Below, one piece after another: positions 40,168 to 51,342 of a stretch of 64,000 nucleotides of DNA (the first letter of the stretch is position 1; each line of letters begins with the position of its first letter). The DNA lies in NCBI RefSeq assembly GCF_900141855.1, contig NZ_FQYU01000002.1, forward strand, positions 124,001-188,000. The letters run 5' to 3'. The position numbers and the translations under genes were made by a program. Source of the stretch: Pseudozobellia thermophila (GTDB lineage: Bacteria > Bacteroidota > Bacteroidia > Flavobacteriales > Flavobacteriaceae). The notes beneath the pieces were generated by a model, which searched no databases, was not told the origin of the DNA, and saw nothing but the letters and a program-made list of their open reading frames with translations.

Positions 40168-41466
40168 ATGATACATAGCCCATTGACAAACAAAAAAAGA
40201 AAGACACTGGGTTTGGCCCTGTTGCTCGCCTTCGTCCTTTGGTCGGATCTGTTCGCCCTACAGGACGTCCAGAACGATCACCATCCCTCCCATGACATAG
40301 AATTGAACAGCTTTGGCTTTAACGCGAAGAAAAGAAGTGGATTCGTAGTTGCGGGACATACGGAGCATGTAGAAAGGGGATTGACCCTTGTTCATTTCAA
40401 CTCAGGGGAAAAATACGAGTTCAAGACCTTCGATACCTATGCCAGTGCCGAAGCCTGCCAAGAATTCATTGCCATCTTAAGACAACTGACCGAAAAAAAA
40501 GCGGTATTTGCCATTTTGGCGCACGATTCGGCCGCCAATGCCATCATAAGCCACTCGAGCGAACTAAAGGCGCTCGGCTACCCCAAATTGGTGAACATAA
40601 AAGGCCGACAGGCCTATGCGATGCACAATTTTCAAGGCCACGTTTACGAACAGGTCGACGACCTGCAGGTCAGGCTTCACCTTGAACCTCCCAATAGACT
40701 ATCGGATGCCAACATCTACTTTCCCAAAATAAAATACGAGTTCGAACCGGGTAACGATCGGTATATCGCCCATGCCGCAGGGGAAATCGAAGGTGTAAAA
40801 TCGACAAACTCAAAAGAGGCCCTCGATTTGAACTACCGTAAGGGCTTTCGGTTTTTTGAGCTCGATATCATCAAAACCTCGGATGGTAAGTTCGTCGCCG
40901 CCCACGATTGGAACATGTGGTCCCGTTTTACCGACTATAAGGGTTCCCTGCCCCCTACCCATGAGGAATTTGTCAAACACAAGATTTATGGGGCATACCA
41001 CACATTGGATATGGAGGGCATCAATTCGTGGTTCAAGGCCCACCCCGATGCCGTTTTGGTAACCGATAAGATAAACGACCCGATGGCCTTTGCCAGTGCC
41101 TTTGTCGACAAACAACGATTGATCATGGAACTTTTTAGTCCCATGGCCATCGAACAAGCCTCCAAACAGGGCATAAAGGCCATGATCTCGCAAGAACCCT
41201 TGCTGGCGTTGAAGGGCGACAGGCTAGATTATCTGGCCCTTAACCAGGTAGAATACGCGGCCGTATCGCGCAGGATCATTGCCCGTAACACCAAGCTGAT
41301 GCAACAGCTTAAAGACCAAGGGGTAAAGGTTTACGTATACCATGTCAACTTTGATCCGGGCAAGGACGAAAAATACGTGTACGATAACGAATTGGGACTG
41401 GTATATGGGATGTATGCCGACCAATGGGCCTTTGGCCCGCTCGACGCCCCCAAGGTTTCCAAATAA
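40168..41466 (+). CDS. ILEI/PANDER domain fused to a glycerophosphodiesterase-like domain
   Basis: A 432-residue exported protein starting at the ATG at 40168; residues 1-28 form a signal or anchor. Residues 45-165 match the ILEI/FAM3 (PANDER) fold: Gly-Leu-Thr-Leu-Val-His-Phe, Phe-Lys-Thr-Phe-Asp-Thr-Tyr-Ala-Ser, Ala-Ile-Leu-Ala-His-Asp-Ser-Ala, and Gly-Arg-Gln-Ala-Tyr-Ala-Met. In animals this fold occurs in cytokine-like proteins and, in POMGnT1, as a sugar-binding stem. Residues 195-425 are a GDPD-like TIM barrel: Ile-Ala-His-Ala-Ala-Gly, Phe-Glu-Leu-Asp-Ile, Ala-His-Asp-Trp. The usual HRG and ENT are replaced by HAA and STN. It may cleave or bind glycerophosphate-containing surface glycans. 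It converges with the polysaccharide operon. Confidence 0.8.
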   Translation: MIHSPLTNKKRKTLGLALLLAFVLWSDLFALQDVQNDHHPSHDIELNSFGFNAKKRSGFVVAGHTEHVERGLTLVHFNSGEKYEFKTFDTYASAEACQEFIAILRQLTEKKAVFAILAHDSAANAIISHSSELKALGYPKLVNIKGRQAYAMHNFQGHVYEQVDDLQVRLHLEPPNRLSDANIYFPKIKYEFEPGNDRYIAHAAGEIEGVKSTNSKEALDLNYRKGFRFFELDIIKTSDGKFVAAHDWNMWSRFTDYKGSLPPTHEEFVKHKIYGAYHTLDMEGINSWFKAHPDAVLVTDKINDPMAFASAFVDKQRLIMELFSPMAIEQASKQGIKAMISQEPLLALKGDRLDYLALNQVEYAAVSRRIIARNTKLMQQLKDQGVKVYVYHVNFDPGKDEKYVYDNELGLVYGMYADQWAFGPLDAPKVSK

Positions 41467-41530: not shown

Positions 41531-42832
41531 CTAGAATTTTACCTGATAGGTAATGCCCCCGGAAATACCATAGAAAAATTCGCCGGGCGCATAGGCCAAC
41601 TCCTGCCGTGTTGCCCCGATATTGGCCCGATAGGAATTTCGGTCGTTTTTTCCCGTAAACTGATATTCGAGACTCAAACGCTGCGATTCGACATAGAGCA
41701 AGGTTTCCGCCAGTAGCTCTTCCCCTGAAATAATTTGTCGCAATTCGGGCGAATAGCCCATGCCCGCGTTAATGCCAAAATAGTTCTCGGCATCCTTAAG
41801 GTATTTCCGCACCAAAAGATTGCCCGAAAACCGGGTCAACTTATCGGGTTGCGGGGTAATGTACGAACGCAATGAAAAATAATAGTTGCCCCTATAATGA
41901 CCTAGGGAATTGGTAATTACCGTAACGTCATTGGTGTCGTACAGAATATGCCTTCCCCCAGCCGAGAACTCAAACGCTCCGGGAAGGTTCACATAAAGGT
42001 CCCCTCCTAGCTTGTGCTTGGGATAGATACTCGAATTTGAATACCCGTAGTTTAAATAGGCGTAAAACCGTTTTGAAAATTTGGGATAAAGATCCAGGTC
42101 GTATTGCAGCCCGTTTTTTCCCAAGCGGTTGCTATAATTGATCCTCGGGATAAGGCTTCCGACCTTGGTTTGGTGCTTTAGGGAAACACTGGAGTAGACC
42201 ATGGGGTCGTAGCGCTGGTCAAATACCGTTACCGCATTGCCAAAATCGAGCCTGTTCCTGGGCTCCTTCTCGGCCTCGGCCACCATTTCAGGGCGCCTTT
42301 CTTCCTCGGCATTGGCCGCATCCGCCCCTTGGTCCCCCATTGACAGGTCCCCTCCTCGACCATCTCCTTCTTCGGTGGTATATGCCTTTTGTTCAAGCCG
42401 CTGTCGGGCAATGTCCCTCAACCTAAGAATCGCGACCGTATCCCTTTTTAGGTAGAAAAGGGCCTTGTTGGCCAGCCCCAAGGCGGTGGCGTTGTTCTTG
42501 GCGTATAGCTCGTTTTTGATGGCCGCTTCCCATATATCCGCATTTTCCCTACTTCTGGAGGTAACCACATTAAACTGTTGCCTTGCCAAACGATATTGGC
42601 CCTGCCAGCTATAGGTACTCGCCAAAAGGTTCCTCGCCTTTATATTTTCGGGATCTTCTTTAACAATGCCCTCCAGTAGTTGCCTTGCCGAAGCGTGCCT
42701 GCCTTCAAAGGCAAGATCGTAGGCCTGTTGAAAGCCAGGGTCGGCCGTTTCGCCAAGGGCACTGTCTTGGCCCTTGCCGGCATAGGCAAAAAACCAAATG
42801 AGAAGCACGGTATATATTTTTTTGGTATACAT
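41531..42832 (-). CDS. TPR and YaiO-type outer-membrane beta-barrel protein
   Basis: A 433-residue exported protein, signal ending Gly-Lys-Gly-Gln. Residues 30-150 are TPR-like helices (Ala-Phe-Glu-Gly-Arg-His, Asn-Leu-Leu-Ala-Ser-Thr-Tyr-Ser-Trp-Gln-Gly, Ala-Leu-Phe-Tyr-Leu-Lys). A Glu/Asp-rich linker (155-195) follows. Residues 200-433 are an YaiO-type barrel: strand-rich, Tyr-rich, ending Gln-Val-Lys-Phe with C-terminal Phe. YaiO proteins lie beside GT2 genes in other bacteria, including yaiP in E. coli. It starts in the last base of the phosphotransferase gene stop, so it is co-transcribed. It is the likely outer-membrane exit or anchor of the polysaccharide. Confidence 0.87.
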   Translation of the reverse strand: MYTKKIYTVLLIWFFAYAGKGQDSALGETADPGFQQAYDLAFEGRHASARQLLEGIVKEDPENIKARNLLASTYSWQGQYRLARQQFNVVTSRSRENADIWEAAIKNELYAKNNATALGLANKALFYLKRDTVAILRLRDIARQRLEQKAYTTEEGDGRGGDLSMGDQGADAANAEEERRPEMVAEAEKEPRNRLDFGNAVTVFDQRYDPMVYSSVSLKHQTKVGSLIPRINYSNRLGKNGLQYDLDLYPKFSKRFYAYLNYGYSNSSIYPKHKLGGDLYVNLPGAFEFSAGGRHILYDTNDVTVITNSLGHYRGNYYFSLRSYITPQPDKLTRFSGNLLVRKYLKDAENYFGINAGMGYSPELRQIISGEELLAETLLYVESQRLSLEYQFTGKNDRNSYRANIGATRQELAYAPGEFFYGISGGITYQVKF

Positions 42833-45198
42833 TAGTTTTCGCTTGCCGCCAACTTGGCGTCCGTATTTTTGGCAAAGGCAATGCCTTTTTTTCTTGCCTG
42901 TCTTTTGGCCCGGTCAATCTTATCGGTTATTTCATGGACACTGGAACTGTTCGCCTCGACCAATTTTATAAGCTCTAAGGCCTCTGTTGTCCTATCCGAC
43001 CAGTAATACACATCAAAAAGGGCGGAATAGGAATCAATGTAATTGGGGTTCATCTTTATACATTCCTTCAAAATCCGTATAGAGGCCCCATAATCCCCGT
43101 TCCACACACTCACCCTTCCCATAAGGACCTTGGTATCGATATGACTTGGCGATTCGGAAAGTATGTAACGGCATAGCAACAGGGCCTTGTCGTACTCCTT
43201 TTTAAAGGCCAAGGCCCGTGCCTTCAAATAGACCTTATCAAAGTTTTCCCCGTTATAGACGCTGTTGATCCACACGATCTCACTATCGGTAAATTGTTCT
43301 TTCGGTACGCTGAAAAGGGCCAGGCTATCGGGTATGATCTTATCGTTCGCGGTAACATAGGCATTCAGCGATTTAAACGCCTTTAGCCTTGCCTCAAGGT
43401 CGGAACCACCGAAACTTCCACCAAGGTCCATGTTTTCGTCAATGGTGTACACCTTGCCTTCCGTATATAGTTTTTCCCCGCTTATGAATTCCTTCAATTC
43501 GTTCTTATTGCGCATGAGGGGAATGTCCTTTACCCCCCTAAACCCGATGTTCATATCGAGGGAATTGCCCATCCACGCCACTTTTTTGGGCATTTTTATG
43601 GCATATTTTCCTTGGAGCAAAGCCGTAATACTCGGGGCTACATCGAAATGGGAGTTAATGGCGCCCATCTTTCTAGGAGACTTGAGCATCGGGCTGTAGA
43701 TGATCAAGGGCACATGAAAGCGGCTTAAATTGTTTCGTTGGGGTATGGGAATAAGCCTGTGGTCGCCTGTGACAATGAAAATGGTATTATCGTAACCGGG
43801 CTGTTCCTTATAGGCTTCGAACACGTAGCGCAGGGCTTCATCGGTGTACAATAGGGAGGCAAAAACGTTGGCGTTTTTTTCGATTATTTTTCGGGTCTTT
43901 CCCTCGTAGCCCCCATTGGCCAGTATCTGCCCCACTTGGCTTTCATATACCTCGGGGCGGGGCGGAACAAAAGGTTCGTGCGTGCTTATGGTCATATATA
44001 CCTCCATTCTGGGCTGTTCGGAATTTCGGGGCAAGCTCATGCTTTTTTTAAACAATTCCTTGTCTGGGTAACCCCATGACGAACCGGCGGCATCTTCGGC
44101 CTGCATCGTATATTGGGAGCCAAAGCCCGATTTATCGAGGACAAAGTCGACGTTTTCGCTGTTCAGGAAGCGATCGACATTATCAAATGCACTATTGGTC
44201 CCCTGATAGTAGGAAGTATGGTAACCGTTGTTCTTTAATATGCCGAAAAGGGTTAGCTTGTTGGGGTATTGCTCCAGTTCCATAAAACCGCTTTTGCCAA
44301 AGGGCAGTGAGCCGATCAAGGAAGGGAGCACGCCAAAGGTCCTTCCCGTATTACTAAGGCAATTCTCCCAATAAAGCGATTTGGTCGTCAGATCGTCTAA
44401 AAATGGGGTAAAGCCCCCAAATTCGGCGCCCTCGCCCACAAAATCCCTTCCCAAACCTTCGACCATTATAAAAACGAGATTCGGTTTTTCATCCTTAAGG
44501 TCAAAATACGGACCAAGGACGTTTTTGGTCTTTTGGGTTTTGATCAAAGGAAACTCCACACTCGAATCGTAGGAGGTGTCTTCGGTCGAGGAGTCGTAAA
44601 TATTCAGCACCAGATACTGGGTCTTGTTCTGGTCTATGGGCTTGCCCGCGATGAACATGGCCATAACGAACATACTGACCAGGATGATGGTAAAAGGGTA
44701 CATTTTGCTGATGTGGTGGTAGTATTTGGAGCTCAACCTATAGAGACCGAAATAAACCGCGATGATTGTGAAAAAACCGATAGCCCCGGTAAAAGACACC
44801 CCTCCCGAATTGCCTATGGTGGTCGTTATATCGGCAAGACTATAGCCCAATAGATCGGAACCCAGGGGTACCAAGGCGGTACAGAAATAGCTGATGAGCA
44901 TGGCTTCGACAAGCAAGAGCAGGGCCAAAATAACGGCAATGGGGCCGAAGCCGTACCCAGGCCTCAGGTTTTCAAGAAAATTGAAGGGAAAGACCAAGGT
45001 CAAGCCGACCAATGAGGCATAGCCGATCTGGTGTACCACCGCTATAAAAAAACTAGTCCCGAAGATAAGGTCGACGACCCCTTTGAAATATAGGGTGGTA
45101 TACTGATAGATGGTAAGCACGAGCAGCCCTCCGAAGAAGGAAAGGATCAACCGGGTATAATGCTTAAGGCCATATCTGTCGCGTGTACTGGTATTCAT
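42832..45198 (-). CDS. LtaS-like phosphotransferase with C-terminal TPR
   Basis: A 788-residue membrane protein starting at the ATG at 45198. About five transmembrane helices occupy residues 15-190. The alkaline-phosphatase/sulfatase-fold domain follows: Phe-Ile-Met-Val-Glu247 as metal ligand, Thr287 in Asn-Thr-Gly-Arg-Thr-Phe-Gly as probable nucleophile, Ile-Ser-Thr-His-Glu-Pro-Phe, and Val-Thr-Gly-Asp-His. LtaS, OpgB and EptA relatives move glycerophosphate or phosphoethanolamine from phospholipid to an acceptor. The last 150 residues are TPR-like (Lys-Glu-Tyr-Asp-Lys-Ala-Leu-Leu), unusual for the family. It begins 7 bases after the GT2 gene. Likely acceptor is the glycan made by that GT2. 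Confidence 0.88.
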   Translation of the reverse strand: MNTSTRDRYGLKHYTRLILSFFGGLLVLTIYQYTTLYFKGVVDLIFGTSFFIAVVHQIGYASLVGLTLVFPFNFLENLRPGYGFGPIAVILALLLLVEAMLISYFCTALVPLGSDLLGYSLADITTTIGNSGGVSFTGAIGFFTIIAVYFGLYRLSSKYYHHISKMYPFTIILVSMFVMAMFIAGKPIDQNKTQYLVLNIYDSSTEDTSYDSSVEFPLIKTQKTKNVLGPYFDLKDEKPNLVFIMVEGLGRDFVGEGAEFGGFTPFLDDLTTKSLYWENCLSNTGRTFGVLPSLIGSLPFGKSGFMELEQYPNKLTLFGILKNNGYHTSYYQGTNSAFDNVDRFLNSENVDFVLDKSGFGSQYTMQAEDAAGSSWGYPDKELFKKSMSLPRNSEQPRMEVYMTISTHEPFVPPRPEVYESQVGQILANGGYEGKTRKIIEKNANVFASLLYTDEALRYVFEAYKEQPGYDNTIFIVTGDHRLIPIPQRNNLSRFHVPLIIYSPMLKSPRKMGAINSHFDVAPSITALLQGKYAIKMPKKVAWMGNSLDMNIGFRGVKDIPLMRNKNELKEFISGEKLYTEGKVYTIDENMDLGGSFGGSDLEARLKAFKSLNAYVTANDKIIPDSLALFSVPKEQFTDSEIVWINSVYNGENFDKVYLKARALAFKKEYDKALLLCRYILSESPSHIDTKVLMGRVSVWNGDYGASIRILKECIKMNPNYIDSYSALFDVYYWSDRTTEALELIKLVEANSSSVHEITDKIDRAKRQARKKGIAFAKNTDAKLAASEN

Positions 45199-45205
45199 CT
45201 TACAT

Positions 45206-46636
45206 TTAAGCGGCTTTTGCAAATCCTTTTCTGACCTGTGAGCCCCAACCGGACTTAATTCTGAACAGTTTTTTGTAATTGCCCCTGACCGCCGACCATA
45301 CCACGATCGGGTGAAATGCCAAGGGTTCGATAAGGGCACAGCCCATTAAGATCAAGATGTCCTTGGTTTTGCGATACTCGTTGTAGCTGTATACGTCCCA
45401 AAGAATGGCATAGAACGAGAACATCACTGAAAACACGTAGACCATGGCGGTTATGGCAATGAAAAAGCCCCAATTCAAAATACCCAGGTACAAAAACACC
45501 AAAATGGTGAAAAAACCGAAAAACTCGAGCAAGGGGGCCAACCACTCATAAAAGAACCAATAGGGGTAACTCAAAAGGCCCAGCCGCCCATATTTGGAGT
45601 TAAAGAACATGTCCTTATGCTTAAACAAGGTCTCTAAATTGCCCCTGGCCCACCGATCCCGTTGATTGACCAGTATCCGAAAATCCTCGGGCACCTCGGT
45701 CCAACATAGGGGATCGGGAATATATTCTATGGTATAGGGCTCGCGACGATCGTGCATATAACGTCTCATTTTAAAGACAATTTCCATGTCTTCGCCCACG
45801 GTATCGGTATCGTAGCCACCAACCGCCATGGCAATTTCCCGGTCGAAGAAGCCGAATGCCCCTGAGATGATCAAAAGGCTGTCTATGCGTCCCCAGGCCA
45901 TACGCCCTAAAATAAAGGACCGGGTATACTCGAGCAATTGAAAACGGGCCAACCAGTTTTTCGGCAGTCGTATCTCTTCCAACTGCCCGCCCTCTATGAC
46001 ACATGAATTGGCTATTCTGATCACGCCTCCCACGGCGATTACCCTTTTTGCCGAACGTTGGTAAAAGGACTTGACCACGTGCAACAGTGCATCGGGCAAC
46101 AGGAGGCAATCGACATCGATACAGCCGACATAGCGACTGTTCGACAAGGCCATTCCGGTGTTAAGGGCATCGGATTTGCCGCCGTTTTCCTTGTCGACCA
46201 CCGTCAGTCTCGCAAAGGCCCGCTGTCGCGATTTATATACGCCCCTTATAGGTTTGTACTTCCCATGGGGGTCGACCTCAAAATCGATTTTTTCGAGCTC
46301 ATACGCATCGATCAACTTTTGCAGGGTATCGTCTTTGCTACCGTCGTTGACCACCATGACCTCATAGTTTACATAACGCAACGACAGCAAAGACCTGATG
46401 TTCTCAACAATGGTAAGGGCTTCGTTATACGCCGGGGCGATAATGGTAATACTGGGCGATAAGGGAGACGCCATTATTTTCGACAGGTCGCCAAAACTGT
46501 TTTTTTTACGATAATGGATCGAATTTCGGGTAGATAGGTACCCCATAAAGGTGAAGAGGGCGAACAATACCACCGTAAACACAAGAAAAACGGTGTTTAT
46601 ATATTCGAGGATAATATGGAACAGGGTACTATCCAT
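45206..46636 (-). CDS. Processive GT2 glycosyltransferase (polysaccharide synthase)
   Basis: A 476-residue membrane synthase of the PgaC/HasA/NodC-like GT2 group. One helix is at residues 15-35 and a C-terminal bundle of about four helices spans 350-450. Catalytic motifs are all present: Asp98 (Val-Asn-Asp-Gly-Ser), Asp174-Val-Asp176, Glu282-Asp283, and Gln325-Arg-Asp-Arg328-Trp329. QxxRW marks processive enzymes that make long chains and export them through their own channel. It overlaps the HEAT gene by 8 bases. Product sugar cannot be read; poly-GlcNAc or similar beta-glycans are the nearest precedents. Confidence 0.93.
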   Translation of the reverse strand: MDSTLFHIILEYINTVFLVFTVVLFALFTFMGYLSTRNSIHYRKKNSFGDLSKIMASPLSPSITIIAPAYNEALTIVENIRSLLSLRYVNYEVMVVNDGSKDDTLQKLIDAYELEKIDFEVDPHGKYKPIRGVYKSRQRAFARLTVVDKENGGKSDALNTGMALSNSRYVGCIDVDCLLLPDALLHVVKSFYQRSAKRVIAVGGVIRIANSCVIEGGQLEEIRLPKNWLARFQLLEYTRSFILGRMAWGRIDSLLIISGAFGFFDREIAMAVGGYDTDTVGEDMEIVFKMRRYMHDRREPYTIEYIPDPLCWTEVPEDFRILVNQRDRWARGNLETLFKHKDMFFNSKYGRLGLLSYPYWFFYEWLAPLLEFFGFFTILVFLYLGILNWGFFIAITAMVYVFSVMFSFYAILWDVYSYNEYRKTKDILILMGCALIEPLAFHPIVVWSAVRGNYKKLFRIKSGWGSQVRKGFAKAA

Positions 46637-49361
46637 TCAACTTGCACATAAAATTCCTTTGCAATCTGTACAGTTGAAATAGAAAAGAGGCCCCGTTGTG
46701 TGATACTTCGGTAGCAACTACGGGCATATCCAATATTTCTTTGGAATGGCACCGATCAAGCGCTTCCTCAGGTTCAAAATCGATTTCAAAAACTTCGGGA
46801 TCCGCCGAGGGTTCGATCTCCATTTCGTCGAGAAGTTGATGGAATTCGTCCTCGGTATAGTCGACCTCAGGGTTTTCCTCGGCCATCTGGCGATCAAAGA
46901 GGGCTTTGGTCTCCCTAGCCTCACTTTCTTTTTTTTTATCCTTTTCGGATTGTTTTTCACGGGCCATCTTATCCACCAACAATTTCAACACCTGGTGGGC
47001 CTTGTCCCTGATTTCGGTATCGGGATGTTCGAGAAGGCCGTCAAGGAATTTAATTTCCTTTTCATCGCCCACGGCCACCACCTCATCGAGCAATATAAGT
47101 TTGGCTTCGCGGTCAATGTTCTTGAACAAATCGGCGAAGACACTGAAAAAAGGAAGGTTCAACTCTTCTACATAGTTCTTTTTTGTGGTCGTGTGACCAT
47201 CGTGCTGTCTACTGAATAACTTTATCATACGTACGATTCTATCTTTTATAAAATTTTTCTTCTCGGCCGCCAATAGCTCTTCCAATAACGGGATTTCCCT
47301 ATGGTCGCCCATTTCCTCCAAATCGTCCAATAGCCCCATCATATAGGTCTCATGATGGTCGTAATAGACGGGTTCCGGTATCAGGTGCCCCCATTGGTCA
47401 TCAAGGGGAAGGTCTGTGGTGACCTCTTCGTATTCGACTTCGATTTCGTTCAATTCGTTTTGAAGCAATAGCCAGGTCAATACATCGTCTTGATCCCCCT
47501 CGTCCTCGACGGAATAAGGTGCTTCTTCCAATTCAAAACCAATGTCCTCGATAGGTCCCCTATCTTCGGCCTTCACGAATTCGACCTCAAAATCGGACAG
47601 GCCGTAGCCCTCAATCCCATCGGACATGTCCACGGGCCCGGGCACAAAACCAGGGTCGTCAACAGCGTTCGAAAAACCTTGTGCGACAAGGTCGTTTTCC
47701 GTTTTTCCCTCCTCTTCATTACCTGCTGTCGGTGGTAAAAAGTCGATATCATCGCTATGGATTTGTGGTTGATCGGTCCTATCCGGTCTTCCGGGCATTG
47801 CCCGTATTTCTTCATAGCATACCTCAAGATTGAGAATGTCTGGACCATGGTTTGTGGCGTCTTTCATGCTATTTGTTTTATCGAACGATGGGTAAGGTGA
47901 TGGATCGGATGGGGTTACAGGGGGCAAGAAAATTATATTCGCGGGAGGTCCCAATCCAGGGGAAACCGACCGCAGACCCTTGCCTCCGGAAACGGACGGG
48001 GGAACGTGTTCTTGTGCCGTCCCGCACTGACCTTTTTTTCCGGTTTCCCTCGAGGCCGTCGCTCCGACGAGTCCCTTTCCAAGGCCCGTGGCCGCTTCGG
48101 ATGTCACGACGGAAAGTGCCGTGGACATGTCGCTTGCCCCCAAGCCTGCCTCGACGGCCGATTGGTCTTCCTTTCCCGAAATCGTAAGGTCTGCCAAGGG
48201 CTCTTGGGGACGGACCCCCTCTTCCATGTTTTCGTCCGTTTTATACGTTGAATCCAAGATTTCCCGCTCCACGGGTTCCACTTCGAAGTGATCGATACCT
48301 TCGGTAGGCATAACCGTTTCGGGAGCGATCATGTTGATGGCCGCCAAGGCCTTGCTCTTCACCGAAAAATGGCCTTCCCTTTGGGCGACGGCATGCAAGA
48401 ACCCGGTATCCGCCTGTCCCCCCAACTCCCCGATAGTGCCTAAAATGGCAATCTTGATATCGGTATTGCTTTTGTAAAAGACCTTTTTTAAGACGGGCAG
48501 GGCCTCAACCACATTAAACTCCTTGATGCATTCAATGGCCTCCAACCTTATTAGAGCCGTCTTGTGTTTTAACAATTCGACCAACGATGAATTCGCATCA
48601 TTTTGATTGTAGTATTTGATAAGCCGAAGCGCAAAAAGTACCACGTGCCTATTGGTCGATGTAAGCCATAACTTGAACCTGGGCGGATCAAAAGTCTCCC
48701 GGTTTCTTAGTACATCCAATAATTTTAACTGTTGCCACTCCGATATTTTATAACGTGTCGTGTCTAAAAAATAATTGATTCCCTCGGGTTTAAGGGTTAC
48801 AATGGCTATTTCGGCCTGTTTCCGTACTGTAGACCGGCGGTCGTTGATAAATTTTGAAATAAAACTGTAGGCCGATTCGACCTGCATCTCGGTCAGTTGC
48901 GATATGCCCTTGGCTATCACCTCCCACCGCCAACTATGCAGTTTTGCAAAGGCGTCGTTGTGAAGACCAAGATCTTGGTACAACTGTAACAGGCGCATTC
49001 GGGTATCCCCTGAAACGTCCTTTTTTAAGTCTAAAAGTACTTCCGTAAGGAGTTGTCGGTTAAACCTGTCCTTCAACAGTTCGCGCACTTGGATCTTTAA
49101 GTCGATATAGTGCGACTTCTCCGACTTAGCGACATCGTCCTCATAAAAGAGAAATTCGCTTATCATGGGAGATAGCTCTTTCTTGAGTTTTTTGGTCTTT
49201 TCCGAAGTGGACGAAATTCGATTTCTAAAAACAAAGACCGAAACCAGGTATACCGCCGACAACCCCATAAAGACCAAGGTCAATACCCATAGCCATTCGG
49301 TATCGATCTCGGGTGCGGTTATCAAATGGTGATTCCAAAATAGCGATCTTGTCTTTAGCAC
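46629..49361 (-). CDS. Membrane-anchored HEAT-repeat scaffold protein
   Basis: A 910-residue protein starting at a GTG at 49361, one base after the response-regulator stop. One transmembrane helix at residues 24-46 anchors it, leaving a cytoplasmic remainder. Residues 90-370 are HEAT-like helical pairs (Thr-Ala-Leu-Ile-Arg-Leu-Glu-Ala-Ile-Glu-Cys, Asp-Ile-Lys-Ile-Ala-Ile-Leu-Gly-Thr). A disordered acidic Ser/Pro/Gly-rich linker spans 375-640. A second HEAT block (680-820) and an acidic tail follow. HEAT proteins are scaffolds. It sits between the regulator and the synthase, so it may link the phosphorelay to the GT2 enzyme. This role is inferred only from position and fold. Confidence 0.8.
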   Translation of the reverse strand: MLKTRSLFWNHHLITAPEIDTEWLWVLTLVFMGLSAVYLVSVFVFRNRISSTSEKTKKLKKELSPMISEFLFYEDDVAKSEKSHYIDLKIQVRELLKDRFNRQLLTEVLLDLKKDVSGDTRMRLLQLYQDLGLHNDAFAKLHSWRWEVIAKGISQLTEMQVESAYSFISKFINDRRSTVRKQAEIAIVTLKPEGINYFLDTTRYKISEWQQLKLLDVLRNRETFDPPRFKLWLTSTNRHVVLFALRLIKYYNQNDANSSLVELLKHKTALIRLEAIECIKEFNVVEALPVLKKVFYKSNTDIKIAILGTIGELGGQADTGFLHAVAQREGHFSVKSKALAAINMIAPETVMPTEGIDHFEVEPVEREILDSTYKTDENMEEGVRPQEPLADLTISGKEDQSAVEAGLGASDMSTALSVVTSEAATGLGKGLVGATASRETGKKGQCGTAQEHVPPSVSGGKGLRSVSPGLGPPANIIFLPPVTPSDPSPYPSFDKTNSMKDATNHGPDILNLEVCYEEIRAMPGRPDRTDQPQIHSDDIDFLPPTAGNEEEGKTENDLVAQGFSNAVDDPGFVPGPVDMSDGIEGYGLSDFEVEFVKAEDRGPIEDIGFELEEAPYSVEDEGDQDDVLTWLLLQNELNEIEVEYEEVTTDLPLDDQWGHLIPEPVYYDHHETYMMGLLDDLEEMGDHREIPLLEELLAAEKKNFIKDRIVRMIKLFSRQHDGHTTTKKNYVEELNLPFFSVFADLFKNIDREAKLILLDEVVAVGDEKEIKFLDGLLEHPDTEIRDKAHQVLKLLVDKMAREKQSEKDKKKESEARETKALFDRQMAEENPEVDYTEDEFHQLLDEMEIEPSADPEVFEIDFEPEEALDRCHSKEILDMPVVATEVSHNGASFLFQLYRLQRNFMCKLNG

Positions 49362-49362
49362 C

Positions 49363-49734
49363 TTAGTTTTTGTTTAACTCCCTGGCCACCCTGACCAATA
49401 GTTCAGAGGGACTTACCGGTTTTGAGATAAAATCGTTGGCGCCCAGTTCAAAGGCGTTAAGAACGTTCTCTTCGTTACCGGCGGAAGAAATTATGATTAT
49501 CGGTACGGCCGATTTAAGCTCGTTGCGTACATAACCGATAAGCTCGATGCCCGAGAAATAGGGCATCATGATGTCGCTTACAATAATATCGGGCATGGTC
49601 TGCCCCAAAAATTCCTTTACCTGCTTGCCGTTGCTGCTATGAATTACCTCATACCCGCCCTTGTTCAGTCGAAAATTCAACAAGGAGGCCAATAGCTCAT
49701 CGTCCTCTGCCAGCAATAGCTTTTTTCTCACCAT
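49363..49734 (-). CDS. Single-domain response regulator
   Basis: A 123-residue CheY-like receiver with no output domain. Acidic pocket Asp11-Asp12, phospho-acceptor Asp54 (Val-Ser-Asp-Ile-Met-Met-Pro), switch Ser/Thr in Ile-Ile-Ser-Ser-Ala, and Lys105 (Ile-Ser-Lys-Pro). It should signal by protein-protein contact. It lies 9 bases after the Hpt gene and one base before the HEAT gene. I infer that it relays phosphate from Hpt to control the HEAT/GT2 apparatus. Confidence 0.93.
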   Translation of the reverse strand: MVRKKLLLAEDDELLASLLNFRLNKGGYEVIHSSNGKQVKEFLGQTMPDIIVSDIMMPYFSGIELIGYVRNELKSAVPIIIISSAGNEENVLNAFELGANDFISKPVSPSELLVRVARELNKN

Positions 49735-49743
49735 TACCCTATT

Positions 49744-50499
49744 TTAATGCTTGTTGTTTTTTCTCAGGTCGCTCAAGGCCTCTTGCAAACTTTCTATGAC
49801 CAAGGGTAGCTCTTCTACAAAACAATTGTATAGAAAATGCAGGTATTTATCGTCTTTGTTGGTTTCGCAAACGTGCTCCATCTGGGAAACGATCAAATAA
49901 AGGTCGTTTGTCTTTAACATGGCCAGTCCTGCCTTGATTTTATGGGCAGCCATTTTTAGGTTTTGGTAGTCGGCATTTTGAAGATGGATCTTGGCCAAGC
50001 CTATAAACTCCATGGCGTTTTTTTCATAGAGCTTGAGAAGCTCTTCCAAAAGTTCCATTTCGCCCATGCAGTCATCGAGAAGTGGCATCAGGTCGACCGA
50101 TTCTCTTTTCTCCAGGACGGATTTGCCGTTGTTGTTATAGATGAACGAACTGTATATTTCTGTTTTCATGGGAGGTTCGATATTTAAAGATTTGAGGACG
50201 GTATCGTAGGTCTTGAAATGGTTGACAATGGCATCGTAGGTACGTATATCAATGTGGTCTTCCGTTTTGTTTTCAGCGCAGGGCGATCGCAGCGGATCGA
50301 ACGAGGTCTTTTCCTTGGCACCCGTGGGTCCCGAATGGTACATACCCGTTGAGGAAATACTATGCACCAGCGTCTTTTTGAAGAAAAGAAATACTTGTTT
50401 TAGGTTCTCCGCCTGGTCGATACGCAATTGCCCTTGGGAGAAATCGTTCAAAAGGACTTCTAAATCACTAACTCGTTTAAGTAGGTCGTCAGCTTTCAA
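49744..50499 (-). CDS. Hpt-domain phosphotransfer protein
   Basis: A 251-residue protein starting at a TTG at 50499, because a stop precedes it and no ATG fits. The N-terminal 120 residues are helical and of unknown type. The C-terminal Hpt domain has the phospho-acceptor His186 in Met-Ala-Ala-His-Lys-Ile-Lys-Ala-Gly, where the canonical form is AHxIKG, so one Gly is replaced by Ala before Gly191. It is the first gene of the polysaccharide operon, directly before the receiver protein. A histidine kinase must come from elsewhere; the multi-PAS kinase at 32 kb is one candidate. Confidence 0.85.
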   Translation of the reverse strand: MKADDLLKRVSDLEVLLNDFSQGQLRIDQAENLKQVFLFFKKTLVHSISSTGMYHSGPTGAKEKTSFDPLRSPCAENKTEDHIDIRTYDAIVNHFKTYDTVLKSLNIEPPMKTEIYSSFIYNNNGKSVLEKRESVDLMPLLDDCMGEMELLEELLKLYEKNAMEFIGLAKIHLQNADYQNLKMAAHKIKAGLAMLKTNDLYLIVSQMEHVCETNKDDKYLHFLYNCFVEELPLVIESLQEALSDLRKNNKH

Positions 50500-50693
50500 T
50501 TTTTACTGTAGATTTGGTTAATAGCTTTGGGACAAAACGGATGCCCGGGCCGAACGCAACGTGTTGCAACTGCCATGTTTACCGTTTTACATGTATAAAA
50601 TTCCCCTTTTCACGGGGTCTAGGCAATTAAATGTTACCTATGCTTCCAATTATGTTGTCAAAGGGCCTTATTTGTAGGTATAAATCTTACATT

Positions 50694-50880
50694 ATGAGGT
50701 ATTTCACCTATATTTTGTCCCTGATGACCACTATGTCATGTACCGAATCCAACAAAAAAAGAACCTGCCGCTATTCAAAAAGCTAGACGGATACCTGAAA
50801 TTGCTATTGCAATGATCATCCCTATCGACATCAATATCAACAACTTCACTTCCGAAATAAAAAAGGAAAAATACGAATAG
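50694..50880 (+). pseudogene. Frameshifted small lipoprotein gene
   Basis: The frame starts Met-Arg-Tyr-Phe-Thr-Tyr-Ile-Leu with a lipobox-like Met-Thr-Thr-Met-Ser-Cys and stops after 30 codons at 50784-50786. If one A is removed from the A7 run at 50754-50760, the frame reads through from 50761 (Glu-Pro-Ala-Ala-Ile-Gln-Lys) to a TAG at 50878-50880, giving 61 residues. The same downstream phase remains open after that TAG for 21 more codons, so further decay is likely. A -1 shift does not restore the frame. No family is recognised. It could also be a sequencing error at the homopolymer. Confidence 0.5.
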
Positions 50881-51342
50881 GACTTCGAAGCCCGGGCACA
50901 TGGCATAGTGGCGAGAACCGACCCAACTTCGGTCGAGGTGCGTTAAGGTGGAAGCAATCGGCCTGGCGATTGGCCAACCGATATAGGGAGCGAGAAATTA
51001 TTCAATTTACAAATAAGGCAACCCGAAACAAACAATTGTTATACAAGCACATACGCCAAATAAAAAGTAGGGGACCCTGATGCAAAGGAAATTGTTGCGA
51101 ATGCCTCGCCAATGCCCTCTCCCCTCTTCGGCCGGGGCTGTACGAGCGCAATGATAACCTCGGGAAGGATCAGCCGATAATCTTGAACCAAAACGGGGAT
51201 GCCTTATAACCGGAGTCCGTGGTCCGGATGACCCAAAAGAACTGGTCCGAACCGCCCTATGGACGTGTTCTGCAAGAAAACCGTCTTTCGGTTACGTATC
51301 AAAAGGTTTGAAGGTTCCTGAATGGTAGGCTCTGCCGCGATA
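50881..51342. other. 462-base stretch with decayed or no coding content
   Basis: In the phase of the restored lipoprotein frame, open segments of 21 and about 37 codons are separated by stops (TAA at 50944-50946). This looks like a decaying gene tail. The right half has no gene-like frame on either strand and lies downstream of the thioesterase gene. No terminator or repeat was seen. Confidence 0.35.

Follow-up and report, generated by a model that had tools for sequence, protein, structure and literature searches.

Synthase-dependent exopolysaccharide systems are frequently under the control of c-di-GMP (PMC12802240). In the type II Bcs system of E. coli, which produces pEtN cellulose, BcsG acts as the pEtN transferase within the Bcs synthase complex and offers a precedent for a decoration step (PMC11470070). 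In Myxococcus, the EpsW-EpsZ system offers a precedent of another kind, namely a single-domain response regulator that controls EPS synthesis post-translationally (PMC12802240). How exopolysaccharide synthases are switched in those Bacteroidota that lack c-di-GMP enzymes is an open question. The genome of Pseudozobellia thermophila belongs to this group: no match to GGDEF or PilZ domains was found in it, the control genomes being positive, so that the post-translational control by c-di-GMP that is usual, though not universal, for synthase-dependent systems was not recovered here. We describe an operon from a 64,000-nucleotide stretch of this genome (the window) that provides a concrete and testable answer to this question. 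It probably makes, sometimes decorates with phosphate, and exports a surface polysaccharide under phosphorelay control. A literature search of open-licence PMC papers returned no description of an operon that combines a receiver (REC), a HEAT protein and a family-2 glycosyltransferase (GT2).

Gene layout and conservation across Bacteroidota

Six ORFs, all on the - strand, run from 50499 to 41531 with spacings of 9, 1, -8, 7 and -1 between consecutive genes (Table 1). A preliminary description of this DNA had listed these six genes, their spacings and intact GT2 and phosphotransferase motifs, all of which were borne out by the ORF coordinates, Pfam and alignments. Pfam and NCBIfam backed every domain assignment in the six genes, and Pfam added a C-terminal TPR region in the LtaS-like protein. 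The natural start of the LtaS-like gene is the ATG at 45198, the listed ORF start at 45339 being too early. The interpretation of the six genes as a phosphorelay-controlled operon for polysaccharide synthesis, decoration and export held in part: a conserved GT2/LtaS-superfamily/YaiO operon with a receiver beside the HEAT gene stood, and four points were corrected. Upstream of the operon, the gap at 50500-51340 looks eroded throughout, and an M19 remnant marks this eroded region; in relatives, the M19 membrane dipeptidase gene is intact and lies upstream of the operon in divergent orientation.

Table 1. Positions of the operon genes and of two neighbouring features in the window
Feature	Position	Strand	Supporting observations
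Truncated hybrid-kinase remnant ("Hpt protein"), 251 aa	49744..50499	-	TTG start; Pfam Hpt 3.8e-6
Lone receiver (REC), 123 aa, D54 and K105, without output domain	49363..49734	-	Pfam Response_reg 1.5e-24
Membrane-anchored HEAT solenoid protein, 910 aa	46629..49361	-	GTG start; Pfam HEAT_2 2.5e-12, two stretches
Processive-type family-2 glycosyltransferase (GT2), PgaC/IcaA-like, 476 aa	45206..46636	-	Pfam GT2 6.8e-21
LtaS-superfamily membrane phosphotransferase with C-terminal TPR, 788 aa, complete active site	42832..45198	-	Pfam Sulfatase 1.5e-31 and TPR
TPR and YaiO outer-membrane barrel, 433 aa	41531..42832	-	Pfam YaiO 1.4e-63 and TPR
Secreted ILEI/FAM3-like and GDPD-like phosphodiesterase, 432 aa, convergent, probable seventh member	40168..41466	+	GDPD 1e-7, ILEI 2.7e-5
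Decayed 5' piece of M19 dipeptidase gene, outside the system	50652..50859	+	tblastn 50% identity, E 2.6e-8

The preliminary description had staked its reading on conservation of the gene order in relatives, and a search for this order showed that REC-HEAT-GT2-LtaS-YaiO recurs across the Flavobacteriaceae. Gene order is identical in close genera, and dozens of genomes whose GT2 is 72-95% identical keep it as well. When named genomes were scanned, 80 loci came to light in Zobellia, Maribacter, Pareuzebyella, Pricia, Robiginitalea, Eudoraea, Flavobacterium, Polaribacter, Pedobacter, Sphingobacterium, Chryseobacterium, Chitinophagaceae and others; the constant part of the loci is REC-HEAT-GT2. Since the order is conserved in dozens of genomes and this core holds across the phylum, the arrangement is far from chance. 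Altogether, 99 HEAT-GT2 loci were collected through GT2 matches. Because these had been found through GT2, we drew an even, unbiased sample of 148 Bacteroidota genomes, 23 of which contained the HEAT domain; comparison of coordinates placed all 25 HEAT matches just upstream of GT2 and on the same strand. The operon is thus real and conserved widely within Bacteroidota; its functional unit is REC-HEAT-GT2 plus YaiO, the exact six-gene set with Hpt being clade-specific.

Several loci deviate from this arrangement. In L133 and L135, GT2 occurs without a recognised HEAT protein, yet with a receiver, an unrecognised protein of 374-383 aa and YaiO. L045 (3369-7696) and L138 represent a variant in which HEAT and GT2 occur with a TPR-YaiO protein of great length (937-955 aa) and no receiver directly adjoins HEAT; L045 additionally encodes a DUF4838 protein. 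The order is rearranged to REC-YaiO-HEAT-GT2, without LtaS, in L041 (9720-13702) and L042 (6371-10575), which ties the receiver and YaiO to one unit. In Maribacter litopenaei (L072), the kinase, LtaS and YaiO genes appear broken into several frames, which could reflect sequencing error or decay.

The receiver and the HEAT protein

The receiver residues D54 and K105 are intact here, and each is kept in 83 of 84 sequences. The HEAT protein consists of an N-terminal TM helix and a HEAT domain (residues ~1-350), followed by an acidic stretch and a second HEAT region; it measures 625-1187 aa in the clade versus about 340-376 aa elsewhere. The acidic stretch and second HEAT region (46629-48250, - strand) are clade-specific and poorly conserved. 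In the AlphaFold model of the N-terminal domain (pLDDT 85.8), a long membrane-type helix is followed by a helical-repeat solenoid resembling HEAT/armadillo adaptors, and this solenoid would be cytoplasmic according to the positive-inside rule.

We infer a signal path that leads from the relay via HEAT to GT2, although the receiver could have another target. Indeed, a receiver without an output domain might serve as a phosphate sink, as known for DifD in Myxococcus (PMC12802240), or signal elsewhere, in which case the relay would not gate GT2 via HEAT and the latter would merely be an assembly factor of the synthase. The missing kinase, here and in several relatives, would suit this explanation, which we nevertheless regard as unlikely: the lone receiver lies directly upstream of HEAT in 89 of the 99 HEAT-GT2 loci (and 60 of the 99 have a kinase within 1.5 kb), the two genes often overlap or are at most 10 bases apart, and the phosphorylation site of the receiver is retained even where the kinase is gone.

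Proposed synthesis, decoration and export

The GT2 motifs D98, D176, E282-D283 and Q325..R328-W329 do not vary among 13 sequences and PgaC/IcaA is the best-matching model, consistent with an inner-membrane GT2 that is predicted to be processive. The score against the PgaC/IcaA model TIGR03937 (147 bits) is far below the equivalog cut-off of 422.3, which counts against fixing the sugar; the match to CelA (the BcsA equivalog) reaches 36 bits for a cut-off of 699, and PilZ is absent. At L049 (7094-10501), GH18, polysaccharide deacetylase and GT2 are found in one chain of 1135 aa, and the same genome also has a GT2-LtaS fusion.

The proposal that the YaiO barrel is the exporter gained support from structure prediction. 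The AlphaFold model combines TPR helices with 14 strands, although the placement of the domains relative to each other is uncertain (pTM 0.53). Among the PDB matches of this model in Foldseek, BcsC was the best, and OmpG, PelB and PgaA (4y25) ranked high. The predicted architecture is thus that of a TPR scaffold with an outer-membrane barrel, for which export is predicted.

In the LtaS-like protein, whose PDB relatives are VP1736, LtaS and LtaP, the catalytic Glu, Thr, Trp, His and Asp-His are all present (E247, T287, W375, H407 and D479-H480). It scored below both equivalog cut-offs, with 54.8 bits for LtaS (cut-off 970) and 43.2 bits for OpgB (cut-off 574). Among classifiable LtaS-like sequences, the site is complete in 54, partial in 6 and stripped of several catalytic residues in 21 (DSLKSH in place of ETWHDH, for instance). 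Kriegella and Sediminicola lack the catalytic domain altogether, and in them the part corresponding to window residues 1-197 (the membrane part) is joined to that from residue 636 onward (the TPR). These domain-less proteins are encoded at 11431-12558 in L086 and 11340-12557 in L094, in operons that are otherwise intact. Phosphate decoration by the LtaS-like enzyme, as proposed in the preliminary description, is consistent with the intact active site in the window, but 23 related loci have lost the site or the entire domain, so that decoration is optional for the system. Since the TM-TPR part is kept where the catalytic domain is lost, it has a role of its own, most likely the coupling of the synthase to the exporter.

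GT2-LtaS fusions of 1135-1195 aa occur in Sphingobacteriaceae, Weeksellaceae and others (L039 9751-13185, L040 7436-10873, L105, L107, L111, L113, L119, L122, L125, L127 and L129). Because these natural fusions keep all catalytic residues, they are strong evidence that the LtaS-like catalytic domain acts with GT2. Inactive LtaS-like proteins form one clade in the LtaS tree and are scattered in the GT2 tree, so that exchange of an LtaS-YaiO cassette between lineages at first looked likely. The two tests for a single clade of inactive proteins conflict, however (p 0.16 versus p 5.6e-44, the likelihood gap behind the second value being too large to be plausible).

No PgsA above the cut-off was found, which argues against phosphatidylglycerol as the donor lipid and sits awkwardly beside a glycerophosphodiesterase-like partner. 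Phosphatidylethanolamine is therefore the likelier donor, a choice that also draws on the lipid composition of flavobacteria.

This partner is encoded by the convergent gene downstream, which probably belongs to the system. The protein starts with what resembles a signal peptide and contains ILEI/FAM3-like and GDPD-like domains; its candidate catalytic residues H201, E231-D233, H246 and E321 are conserved in orthologs. The gene adjoins the operon in 23 loci with active LtaS versus 0 of 21 inactive loci; in whole-genome searches, it was present with 31 active LtaS, missing from one genome with active LtaS (G001) and present in 0 of 22 with inactive LtaS. On the tree, the direction of this link was always the same and it was not significant after phylogenetic correction. 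As only one well-supported change, and four independent changes in total, underlie it, the tracking of catalytic LtaS status by GDPD is suggestive only. More distant relatives with active LtaS lack the GDPD gene.

Such a phosphodiesterase would suit glycerophosphate, and the LtaS-like protein matches OpgB-type models (43 bits) as well as VP1736. Together with the loci in which no YaiO lies beside GT2 (L036, L106 and L120), this fits a periplasmic oligosaccharide system resembling osmoregulated periplasmic glucans (OpgH and OpgB), in which the glycans would be short and periplasmic, the LtaS-like protein would add phosphoglycerol and YaiO would have another role. We consider such a system quite improbable. 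GT2 is PgaC/IcaA-like and not OpgH-like, the operon shows no OpgG-type gene, and YaiO has a TPR and a 14-strand barrel resembling BcsC, PelB and PgaA; moreover, the TM-TPR part persists beside YaiO even though catalysis can be dispensed with.

Kinase loss, proposed mechanism and known systems

Most relatives in the clade carry a gene of ~570-608 aa with HisKA, HATPase, receiver and Hpt domains. The first protein of the window operon aligns with both ends of the 586-595 aa kinases of relatives and lacks the middle, keeping the N-terminal ~45 aa and the Hpt domain with H186. The designation as an Hpt protein was thus right as to the domain (recognised by Pfam, with H186 intact), but the gene is evidently the remnant of a HisKA-HATPase-REC-Hpt hybrid kinase, and the local relay is without its kinase. 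The HisKA-HATPase core is absent from the window and no kinase ortholog was found elsewhere in the genome, the next matches being generic hybrid kinases with at most 37% identity. Hpt-only genes were also observed in G001, Zobellia, Pareuzebyella and Pricia, and others keep REC-Hpt. In a sister genus (G036) the kinase is split into a separate 297-aa protein, with no Pfam match and without the phospho-His, and a separate Hpt. L083 has two kinase/Hpt genes ahead of the receiver, one for a full hybrid kinase and another for a short Hpt protein.

H186 is invariant in 54 of 54 sequences, and the non-synonymous distances of Hpt (0.09-0.48) fall within the range of kinase-fused Hpts, synonymous sites being saturated. 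These values point to an Hpt that is not decaying and is under purifying selection after kinase loss. As the operon's own kinase has been lost in this organism, Hpt must be loaded by others, and the most parsimonious view is that different kinases supply its phosphate today. It is very unlikely that the whole operon is decaying, with the kinase lost, the upstream gene eroded and the remainder following, as the genome-wide lack of the kinase core, the M19 remnant and the split kinase of the sister genus might suggest, given that the downstream genes are all intact, that their synonymous sites are saturated while non-synonymous change is far lower, and that REC identity in kinase-lost genomes (81-89%) is no lower than in kinase-bearing ones.

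The reading that we favour, and hold to be reasonably likely, is a synthase-dependent exopolysaccharide system in which a phosphorelay via the receiver and HEAT replaces c-di-GMP, with optional decoration and export by YaiO. Kinases would phosphorylate Hpt, which would pass the phosphate to the lone receiver. The phosphorylated receiver would then dock on the HEAT solenoid, a cytoplasmic domain that a single TM helix anchors to the inner membrane, and HEAT would switch the adjacent GT2. GT2 would polymerise and extrude a linear glycan, probably of a GlcNAc- or glucose-type sugar, and the LtaS-like protein would take the chain, its TM domain and periplasmic TPR coupling synthase and exporter. 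Catalytic versions, as in the window, would decorate the glycan with a phosphate-containing head group taken from a phospholipid, YaiO, which carries a TPR itself, would export the glycan, and the secreted GDPD-like enzyme would probably trim the phosphodiester.

A wider proposal, to which we give an even chance, is that these loci represent an undescribed, phylum-wide class of synthase-dependent exopolysaccharide machines. In this class, the relay would allosterically gate the GT2 polymerase via the receiver and a membrane-anchored HEAT adaptor, in the role of c-di-GMP; the LtaS-like protein would have begun as a phosphotransferase and become a purely structural TM-TPR coupler in several lineages, and the secreted GDPD-like eraser would have been lost along with this change. 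Loci range naturally from kinase-bearing through split to Hpt-only, and phosphotransferases from catalytic through dead to domain-less, which would allow signal input, decoration and export to be separated genetically. The host organisms are close to Zobellia, Maribacter and Flavobacterium, and several are cultured.

Like the type II Bcs system of E. coli, with BcsA, BcsG and BcsC, the operon combines a membrane GT2, a TM-anchored phosphotransferase and a TPR-barrel exporter (PMC11470070). Unlike Bcs, it has no BcsB, BcsE, BcsQ or PilZ, and it has REC-HEAT in place of c-di-GMP, an LtaS-type phosphotransferase with a C-terminal TPR and a PgaC-like GT2. Similarity to the PgaABCD/IcaA systems for poly-N-acetylglucosamine lies in the GT2, which is closest to the PgaC/IcaA model, and in the PgaA-type exporter among the Foldseek matches; however, GT2 stays below the equivalog cut-off, and neither a PgaB deacetylase nor PgaD was seen in the operon. 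With the glycerophosphate transferases LtaS and OpgB (MdoB), the LtaS-like protein shares the catalytic domain and the active-site residues, but it differs in its C-terminal TPR, its setting in a GT2 operon, its dead or domain-less relatives in the same operon and its scores below both equivalog cut-offs. The YaiO-YaiP pair of E. coli presumably also joins a YaiO barrel to a GT2, without REC-HEAT or LtaS. FpgA of Flavobacterium psychrophilum (FP1638) does not qualify as a known member, as it belongs to a two-gene unit with a WbhW-like gene (PMC4293000), and the available part of the report on an F. johnsoniae colonisation screen does not name the operon (PMC10936215). EpsW-EpsZ of Myxococcus xanthus differs in acting on a phosphoglycosyl transferase from a Wzx/Wzy pathway, by direct contact with the enzyme and without a HEAT protein. 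The proposed regulatory logic is the novel part of the operon.
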